Positions 25,066-26,614 of a stretch of 64,000 nt of DNA are shown here, piece by piece (the first letter of the stretch is position 1; every line of letters begins with the position of its first letter). Under the pieces are notes generated by a model. The model was not told the origin of the DNA and searched no databases. It saw nothing but the letters and a program-made list of their open reading frames with translations. Made by a program: the position numbers and the translations under genes. Source of the DNA: Defluviitaleaceae bacterium (GTDB lineage Bacteria; Bacillota; Clostridia; Lachnospirales; WQUN01); NCBI GenBank assembly GCA_009784025.1, contig WQVK01000002.1:1-64000 (forward strand). The letters are read 5' to 3'.

Positions 25066-25227
25066 TTCAATCTCCTTTCGCTGGAAGCGCCGTTTAATCC
25101 ACAATGCGTGGTTACAACCGCCACTTTCCATTACAAAACTATGACAAAGTCACTATACAGTATCTACGCAGAAAATAAATTAGGGTTTTTTCCATATGTA
25201 TTGATATTTTTTCCGATGTTTGCCGGA

Positions 25228-25257
25228 AAAAAACTGCCCTGGCAAAATGCCCAGGGC
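25228..25257 (-). terminator. Terminator after the Fur-family gene
   Basis: Minus strand: stem GCCCTGG/CCAGGGC around an 8-base loop, then a T run (A at 25228-25233). It starts 8 bases after the stop of the regulator gene. Confidence 0.75.
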
Positions 25258-25264
25258 GGTCTTG

Positions 25265-25618
25265 TTATTTACATTCATCGCAGATATATTGCACAGATAG
25301 TTCTGCATGTACTATTTCTGCTGTGGTGTGGCTGCTTATATATTCCATCAGCCCAGGTATCAATAGGTCTACGGTTTTGCCGCAGTGGATGCATGTCATA
25401 TGCTCGTGAGGGGATGGGTTGTCGTCAAAGAGGTCTGGCAGGGGGCTGCGTGTTAGGCGCCTTATGGTATTATTTTCCGCAAATATATTTAGGTTGCGGT
25501 ATATTGTGCCCATTGCCACAGTTGGGATTTCCTTACGCACCTCTGTGTAAACTGTTTCGGCGGTGGGGTGTTTTACTGCACAAAGTACGCGCAATATTTC
25601 TTTTTGCGCTTTGGTCAT
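25265..25618 (-). CDS. Fur family transcriptional regulator, PerR-like
   Basis: 117 residues from the ATG at 25618, which has AGGTG 7 bases upstream. An in-frame ATG at 25624 overlaps the previous stop as ATGA and is an alternative. The winged helix contains 'KHPTAETVYTEVRKEIPTVAMGTIYRNLNIFAENNTI' (TVAMGTIYRNL is the recognition helix). 'SPHEHMTCIHCGK' and the C-terminal 'YICDECK' give two CxxC pairs for structural zinc plus HxH for the regulatory metal. It is a little short at the N-terminus compared with typical members. The gene context (reverse rubrerythrin, redox Cys protein) favours a PerR-type peroxide sensor over Fur or Zur. Confidence 0.85.
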   Translation of the reverse strand: MTKAQKEILRVLCAVKHPTAETVYTEVRKEIPTVAMGTIYRNLNIFAENNTIRRLTRSPLPDLFDDNPSPHEHMTCIHCGKTVDLLIPGLMEYISSHTTAEIVHAELSVQYICDECK

Positions 25619-25620
25619 AA

Positions 25621-25848
25621 TCATTCACCTGCTTCTATATCTTGCGGGATTTCGCAGACGGTATCTGTACAGTCTGGTTGGGGGAGTTCGCAAGCTTCGC
25701 TTTCGCAAAGGATTTCCGTTGCGGTAGCTTCTTTGGGCTCTCTTATATCTAAATTCTCATTGACTGCGATTTTACAGACTATGCATATCTCCGGTGTGTT
25801 GCAGCCTTCCTGAAAATAACTGCACATTTTACATTCTATATGTTTCAA
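25621..25848 (-). CDS. Cys-rich mini-protein with rubredoxin-like Cys spacing
   Basis: 75 residues with nine Cys. It starts with TTG at 25848, preceded by GGAGG 8 bases away. The N-terminal 'IECKMCSYFQEGCNTPEICIVCK' (in parts: CKMC, EGCNTPEICIVC) reproduces the C-x2-C ... G ... P-E-x-C-x2-C spacing of the rubredoxin domain in the nearby rubrerythrin ([20 protein letters not shown]). The C-terminal 45 residues are acidic with four more Cys. No known family was recognised; a redox or metal role is inferred. The stop overlaps the start region of the Fur-family gene, so the pair is co-translated. Confidence 0.65.
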   Translation of the reverse strand: MKHIECKMCSYFQEGCNTPEICIVCKIAVNENLDIREPKEATATEILCESEACELPQPDCTDTVCEIPQDIEAGE

Positions 25849-25870
25849 AAAATACCTCCATCTTCTTGCA

Positions 25871-25918
25871 AAGGAATAGTTCCTAATATAAGTTTACCAC
25901 TTAGTTAATAAATGTCAA
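25871..25918 (-). promoter_or_regulatory. Promoter and candidate PerR/Fur-type operator of the regulator operon
   Basis: Minus strand: -35 TTGACA (25913-25918), 16 bases, -10 TAAACT (25891-25896). Five bases on is an imperfect 7-1-7 inverted repeat, TAGGAACTATTCCTT (25871-25885). The layout is the same as at the rubrerythrin promoter, so the regulator probably controls itself. Confidence 0.55.
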
Positions 25919-25998
25919 TGGTAAAAACCAACGGCAGCAAATGTGGACAAGGAAATCACATTTGCTGCCGCAGGCCGAGAGTGGAGGGTGGAACTCTA

Positions 25999-26544
25999 TC
26001 AGAAATACCTGTTTAGCAAGCCTTGGAATGCTCTGCCGTGGCGGGCTTCGTCTTTGCACATTTCGTGAACGGTGTCATGTACTGCGTCTAGCCCCAGCTC
26101 TTTTGCGCGCTTGGCTATGGCTAGTTTGCCTTCTGTTGCGCCATGTTCTGCCACTACGCGTTTTTCTAGGTTGGTTTTGGTGCATGGGTCTACAACTTCG
26201 CCCAGCAGTTCTGCAAATTTTGCTGCATGTTCTGCTTCTTCAAATGCAATGCGCTTGTAAGCTTCTGCCACTTCTGGGAAGCCTTCACGGTCTGCTTGGC
26301 GGCTCATGGCCAGGTACATGCCAACCTCGGCGCATTCTCCCACAAAATGGTCACGCAGGCCTTTTAGCACCTCTGGGTCGCAATCTTTGGCCACGCCTAT
26401 GCGATGCTCGTCTGCAAATATCAGGCCTTCGGAAGGGTCGTGGGATACAAATTTATCTGCCCCTGCATGGCATATTGGGCAGGCTTCTGGTGCTTGGTTG
26501 CCGTCTTCAGCATAACCGCAAACTGTACATACGAATTTTTTCAT
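25999..26544 (-). CDS. Reverse rubrerythrin (N-terminal rubredoxin domain)
   Basis: 181 residues. The rubredoxin domain comes first ('[23 protein letters not shown]', Cys6, 9, 21, 24), followed by a four-helix ferritin-like diiron domain with '[17 protein letters not shown]', '[15 protein letters not shown]' and '[13 protein letters not shown]' supplying the Glu/His ligands. Ordinary rubrerythrins have the reverse order. In Clostridia such proteins reduce H2O2 (and O2) with electrons from NADH and rubredoxin reductases. Strong AAGGAGG ribosome binding site. Controlled by a near-consensus promoter with a palindromic operator. Confidence 0.93.
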
Positions 26545-26566
26545 TTTATTTCCTCCTTCAAATAAA

Positions 26567-26614
26567 TAAGAATGATTCTTAATCGCAGTATATCATGTGG
26601 AGGAGAAATGTCAA
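26567..26614 (-). promoter_or_regulatory. Rubrerythrin promoter with 7-1-7 PerR/Fur-type operator
   Basis: Minus strand: -35 TTGACA (26609-26614), 16 bases, -10 TATACT (26587-26592). Five bases on is the perfect 7-1-7 inverted repeat TAAGAATCATTCTTA (26567-26581), covering the expected start of transcription. Occupancy would block the polymerase, so peroxide-released repression is likely. Confidence 0.7.

Follow-up and report, generated by a model that had tools for sequence, protein, structure and literature searches.

Products with a rubredoxin-type Cys4 site are known from operons that also encode a PerR-like repressor. The available part of PMC545781 describes the perR-rbr-rdl operon of D. 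vulgaris, in which the rubredoxin-like product Rdl is encoded together with such a repressor, and the available part of PMC11980386 describes CD0828 from the rbr operon of C. difficile, a protein of 480 aa with predicted FMN and Fe-S parts and the spacing C-x2-C-x21-C-x2-C, which is co-expressed with perR. One Cys4 domain can also exist as a free small protein, as in mini-proteins of the NF045720/RCKP type, or form the N-terminal rubredoxin domain of reverse rubrerythrins (PF21349), enzymes that dispose of peroxide. Rubredoxin domains whose Cys pairs lie 10–14 residues apart are classed as "short-spaced" in the accessible text of PMC5114695.

In the window, i.e., the whole stretch of 64,000 nucleotides that was analysed, a small ORF directly precedes a gene for a PerR-type regulator (perR) and shares features with each of these systems. 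It has the same Cys spacing near the start as the PF21349 domain, together with Y11, E14, G15, P19, E20 and K26; unlike reverse rubrerythrins, however, it has no ferritin domain and has lost Gly10, Pro23, Lys31, Phe32 and the aromatic residue at position 4. It differs from Rdl, as far as the description in the available part of PMC545781 allows a comparison, in that it precedes perR, lies apart from rbr and has a different operator core, and it lacks the size, the additional parts and the longer Cys spacing reported for CD0828. Two free mini-proteins of our data set (L171 and L173), which match NF045720 weakly and below its cut-off, retain the CGY motif and a Phe near the domain end, unlike the small ORF. 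A rubredoxin-type product in a perR operon is thus known; what is new here is its reduced size, its divergence, its location ahead of perR and the absence, so far, of full-length relatives. No small ORF of this kind before perR was found in the literature searched, which covered subscription journals sparsely and other sources in the parts available. The features of the locus are as follows.

25236–25257, minus strand: terminator-like site downstream of perR (consensus scan)
25265–25624, minus strand: perR, Fur-family regulator of the PerR type; 119 aa, or 117 aa with a second ATG (25618) as start
25621–25848, minus strand: small ORF with a TTG start, 75 codons; residues 1–26, diverged fragment of a reverse-rubrerythrin rubredoxin domain; residues 27–75, acidic tail
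25855–25859, minus strand: Shine-Dalgarno (SD) sequence GGAGG ahead of the small-ORF TTG; −10.6 kcal/mol duplex with the anti-SD sequence
25872–25884, no strand assigned: palindrome AGGAATAGTTCCT between the promoter-like site and the small-ORF SD
25891–25918, minus strand: sigma-70-type promoter-like site TTGACA-16-TAAACT, with TG before the second hexamer
25926–25976, minus strand: strong hairpin downstream of rbr; core arms 25932–25945 and 25957–25970; −31.4 kcal/mol, z −6.95
25999–26544, minus strand: rbr, reverse rubrerythrin of 181 aa with an N-terminal rubredoxin domain; intact neighbour
26567–26581, no strand assigned: perfect 7-1-7 palindrome TAAGAATCATTCTTA between the rbr promoter-like site and rbr
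26587–26614, minus strand: rbr promoter-like site TTGACA-16-TATACT (consensus scan)

The coordinates and TTG start given for the small ORF in a preliminary description proved exact, and its strand and 75-aa length were confirmed. Its residues 1–26 contain C6, C9, C22 and C25 as well as C16, and its tail contains C48, C53, C60 and C65. The acidic, Cys-rich character previously ascribed to the tail was borne out by 14 Asp/Glu against 2 Lys/Arg past residue 30 and by the Cys content of the whole protein (9 of 75 residues); shuffles of its own bases contained 1.3 Cys on average, at least five in 0.8% of cases and nine in 0 of 5000. A 12-residue repeat within the tail (CESEACELPQPD/CTDTVCEIPQDI) was considered and rejected: the best pair has 5 identical residues, which 635 of 5000 Cys-fixed shuffles equalled, and 17 of 36 bases are identical at the DNA level.

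The likeness of the small ORF to the neighbouring rubrerythrin was confirmed, in that C6/C9 and C22/C25 share with it the x12 spacing and the distance from the start codon, and the surrounding G and PE residues mentioned in the preliminary description correspond to G15, P19 and E20, which coincide in both proteins. More generally, the C-x2-C-x12-C-x2-C pattern is in register with reverse-rubrerythrin N-termini, start codon included, and falls within the spacing of PF21349-type domains (C-x2-C pairs 10–14 residues apart). We built a 26-residue profile from 77 reverse-rubrerythrin N-termini, i.e., from 80 loci minus L083 (shorter loop) and L112 and L121 (other first residue). The small ORF scored 37.3 bits against this profile, and none of 20,000 Cys-fixed shuffles scored as high, which establishes common descent with the rubredoxin domain of reverse rubrerythrins rather than for the mimicry of a rubredoxin iron site that had been supposed. 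Judged from sequence, residues 1–26 are a diverged fragment of this domain, neither a full rubredoxin nor a chance mimic. In 12 of the 26 positions (M1, K2, C6, C9, Y11, E14, G15, P19, E20, C22, C25 and K26) the small ORF has the commonest residue, each present in at least 62% of the 77 relatives; if matches were random, the hypergeometric chance that all four Cys ligands are among them would be 0.033 (12 matches) or 0.014 (10 matches).

The departures from the 77 relatives comprise aromatic 4, V/I5, V/I8, G10, A/P18, P23, K31 and F32, and several of these are otherwise highly conserved (Gly10, Lys31 and Phe32 in 77 relatives each, Pro23 and aromatic 4 in 74 each). The small ORF scored 13.3 bits against PF21349 (RUBY_RBDX), under the curated cut-off of 26.5, and gave no match to PF00301 (Rubredoxin) at E values up to 1 or to NF045720 (RCKP-type rubredoxin-like) at E values up to 5. 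It had been set apart from known rubredoxins on the ground that the second Gly-Tyr and the aromatic core are missing. The loss of the core stands, whereas the Gly-Tyr argument does not, because the second Gly-Tyr is also absent from reverse rubrerythrins, which have Ala or Val at position 27 in 77 of 77 cases. An origin as a recent copy of the window's own rubrerythrin was rejected: the two have 10 of 26 residues in common, yet the small ORF shares more than 10 with 60 of 80 other rubrerythrins and at best 14 of 26, with Paraclostridium and Romboutsia records. Since it is no nearer to the window's own rubrerythrin than to others, it does not stem from a recent duplication of the adjacent gene.

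When modelled without an alignment, the small ORF had a mean pLDDT of 46.5. Addition of 32 rubrerythrin N-termini raised the pLDDT to about 82 for residues 1–30, a value biased by the very N-termini supplied, and left it low in the tail. The best PDB matches of the model were rubrerythrins with E values of at least 0.3, and unrelated zinc-site proteins were close behind.

The TGA of the small ORF overlaps the ATG of perR (ATGA), and an alternative perR ATG lies two bases downstream. This overlap, together with the best match of the regulator among solved structures, 2fe3 ("Peroxide operon regulator", 1e-18), upheld the previously noted coupling to a PerR-like regulator. The positions aligned with 2fe3 include what we take to be the PerR metal ligands. 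The regulator scored 67.7 bits against PF01475 (cut-off 23.1) and has two C-x2-C pairs; given that it reached at best 80 bits against the NCBIfam PerR equivalog models, whose cut-off is 200, we do not name this putative peroxide sensor beyond "PerR-type". The predicted SD duplex energies were −10.6 kcal/mol for the small ORF, −11.7 kcal/mol for rbr and −6.1 kcal/mol for perR, and the weak SD of perR fits translational coupling to the small ORF.

On the minus strand, the order is rbr, hairpin, promoter-like site, palindrome, SD, small ORF, perR and terminator-like site. The small ORF and perR appear to share a transcript that is separate from rbr, and the hairpin, which was absent from the terminator list of the consensus scan, is probably the end of the rbr transcript. 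The scan of 1.5 kb returned 3 promoter-like and 3 terminator-like sites, as compared with 2.2 and 1.8 in shuffles; because these counts are near the shuffle level, the sites were judged by their place and quality rather than by their number.

PerR probably uses the palindrome AGGAATAGTTCCT as its operator for the two-gene operon. A genome of another family of the same order (G163), which contains the nearest PerR relative found (42% identical), has AGGAATTATTCCT immediately upstream of perR, without room for a small ORF between them, and the small ORF of the window therefore sits between perR and its probable operator. Desulfovibrio PerR sites are tabulated in Table 7 of PMC545781, e.g., AATAGGAATCGTTCCTGTT before D. 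vulgaris rbr2; going by the part of this source that was available, AGGAATAGTTCCT and the core of this rbr2 site, AGGAATCGTTCCT, differ in the middle base only, and the D. vulgaris perR-rbr-rdl operon itself is preceded by a site whose core is AGTAATTGTTACT instead of AGGAAT. By resemblance, the palindrome upstream of rbr, TAAGAATCATTCTTA, also appears to be of the PerR/Fur type.

A box with at most two mismatches occurred within about 200 bases upstream in 8 of 63 other PerR loci, as compared with 1.3 in shuffles; the 8 include the relative that supplied the box as well as L137 and L138, which look like near copies. It was absent at this threshold from the remaining 55 loci. We found no genome-wide enrichment of the box pattern at up to one mismatch (48 matches versus 42 in the control) and none in the window at two mismatches (4 versus 3.8). 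A regulon defined by the box pattern was dropped on the genome-wide counts of 48 and 42, and the support is limited to the two sites at the small-ORF/rbr locus. The rbr palindrome, which follows a promoter-like site, and the perR box suggest a small regulon.

The full-length sequence of the small ORF was found in one genome only. Partial matches were present, with its own genome counted, in 9 of 61 genomes at E ≤ 0.01, in 17 of 398 at E ≤ 0.003 and in 282 of 392 at E ≤ 1. Among the matches listed, the best foreign one had an E value of 2.8e-5, none covered more than 62 of the 75 residues, and most of the matching frames were rubrerythrin-sized (about 180–230 aa). The small ORF was not found in viral contigs, phages, PHROGs or a pattern-based search of the contigs of close relatives, and plasmids gave one weak match (E 0.3). 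A search for the pair of small ORF and regulator in other genomes, as proposed in the preliminary description, came back empty: 0 of 63 other PerR loci had it, and none of the 63 had a comparable ORF at the perR start. The listed frames with at least four Cys near those perR genes were rubrerythrins, out-of-frame rubrerythrin readings (L100, L110) or frames whose ends lie far upstream of perR. In a second scan of the collected loci, the small ORF was the only short ORF with two C-x2-C pairs that abuts perR.

Ten places among the matches from the same order were read in sequence, and none could be recognised as a full-length relative. In G259 and G266 a contig end truncates a rubrerythrin, and in G193 it truncates the frame too early for assignment. 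An in-frame stop splits the rubrerythrin of G206, that of G045 is ordinary, and the extra part in G136 is longer; the rubredoxin-like ORFs of G293 and G058 stand alone, and G364 and G346 are unrelated matches to the tail. In a further match, G347, the frames (62 and 47 aa) lie close to contig ends.

Our preferred reading, to which we give a probability of 0.42, is that the small ORF encodes an evolutionarily young Cys4 protein with a metal or thiol role in the peroxide response governed by PerR. It would be translated as the leading gene of an operon of two, perR being the other, and would be controlled by the operator that PerR probably uses for itself. It descends from the rubredoxin domain at the N-terminus of a reverse rubrerythrin, has diverged strongly and lacks the ferritin domain. 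The four Cys of the metal site are kept and further Cys are present, mostly in the acidic tail, but the aromatic core and the knuckle Gly and Pro are gone. Once peroxide lifts PerR repression, the small protein and PerR would be made together, and the former may hold Fe or Zn, or offer thiols, in a loosely folded Cys4 knuckle, as a metal/thiol buffer in the peroxide response rather than as an efficient rubredoxin. The strong SD, the coupling to perR, the kept ligands, the extra Cys and, more weakly, the open frame argue for the small ORF being used, and, if it is, the metal domain of an enzyme would have been freed to serve in the operon that controls the very stress response to which the enzyme belongs. 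We rate this plain metal/thiol role above two more specific ones. A minimal rubredoxin that feeds electrons to the neighbouring rubrerythrin, as proposed for Rdl of D. vulgaris, would agree with the Cys4 motif, the place in the perR operon, the absence of a PF00301 match at E values up to 1 from the genome (82% complete) and the rubredoxin-like partners described for PerR operons in the available parts of PMC545781 and, for CD0828, of PMC11980386. However, with neither an aromatic core nor the Gly that normally follows the first C-x2-C, an efficient FeS4 electron carrier is unlikely; moreover, the neighbouring rubrerythrin has a rubredoxin domain of its own, and C. difficile CD0828 gave electrons to Rbr and Sor only very slowly, according to the accessible text of PMC11980386. 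It is quite unlikely that the small protein, translated together with PerR, assists it by loading or stripping its Fe or Zn or by taking the first oxidant hit; if it did, a domain cut from a response enzyme would now tune the sensitivity of that enzyme's regulator.

Nearly as likely as the metal/thiol reading, though still short of an even chance, is the possibility that the small ORF is a relic: a reverse rubrerythrin before perR would have lost its middle (about residues 32–124) and decayed, leaving a peptide without a specific role, translated mainly for the ribosome supply of perR. Evidence from codon use bears on this. The synonymous codons of the small ORF scored below all 116 gene segments from 19 hand-picked genes, a set that left out the antisense frames 25108–25620 and 25941–26582, and were level with unselected codons, unlike perR and rbr, whose codon use was adapted in the same comparison. 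In a second, whole-codon score, the small ORF stood below 97.8% of true segments and above 98.8% of wrong-frame segments; the training set, chosen by length, included those two frames, which are antisense to perR and rbr, and its lower tail is therefore slightly polluted. In addition to unadapted codons, the weak perR SD and the failure to find full-length relatives would suit a relic, as would the neighbourhood of such genes elsewhere: perR lies beside the rubrerythrin in 22 of 80 rubrerythrin loci, downstream in 17, and in a genome of the same family (L022) perR follows an apparent reverse-rubrerythrin end, cut by the contig end. The tail also aligns in order with rubrerythrin residues 125–165, with a best score of 47 over 81 rubrerythrins; this maximum was equalled in 11 of 1000 shuffles and the mean in 28 of 1000, and 142 of 3000 shuffles did as well when the tail was compared with the rubrerythrin of the window. 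Taken together, the unadapted codons and the weak likeness of the tail to a rubrerythrin C-terminus hint at a shrunken operonic rubrerythrin, and loss of the middle part of such an enzyme is a tentative origin of the small ORF. However, the tail resemblance was found post hoc, 4 of 236 pieces taken from reading frames of the window itself match the tail equally well, and BLAST aligns the same tail to rubrerythrin residues 32–70 too. Likewise, the 75-codon frame is open despite the divergence, has a strong SD, and keeps four Cys plus five more. If it is a relic, a leader ORF left by gene decay may still drive the translation of the regulator. Unadapted codons would also be expected of a chance open frame in the perR leader, and dinucleotide shuffles of the stretch produced an ORF of 75 codons or more on the same strand in 45 of 2000 cases (2%) and on either strand in 191 of 2000 (about 10%), which makes ORF length by itself weak evidence for a gene. 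Nevertheless, the likeness to a rubrerythrin N-terminus, which is aligned on the start codon and which none of 20,000 shuffles equalled, the strong SD and the ATGA overlap with perR render the chance frame highly improbable, and we strongly disfavour it.

Several other arrangements of rubredoxin-type domains were observed among the records examined. Free-standing, short-spaced rubredoxin-like mini-ORFs, about 35–37 aa long from the first Met, lie at positions 712–840 of L171 and at 804–974 of L173 (minus strand), and a gene near the latter presumably encodes a flavodiiron protein, which it resembles. In G206/L170, a reverse rubrerythrin at positions 773–1330 has an in-frame stop just past the rubredoxin domain, possibly a sequencing error, so that a 48-codon frame and a ferritin-domain frame lie in one reading frame. 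L174 encodes, at positions 462–815, a rubredoxin-type domain followed by about 75 further residues with no family match in NCBIfam, the one collection compared. A 52-aa rubredoxin-like ORF starts at position 3605 of L051, a Victivallales record, soon after a reverse rubrerythrin, which is the usual form of a rubredoxin neighbour. In four Clostridium records (L046, L062, L081 and L118), two complete reverse-rubrerythrin copies adjoin each other.
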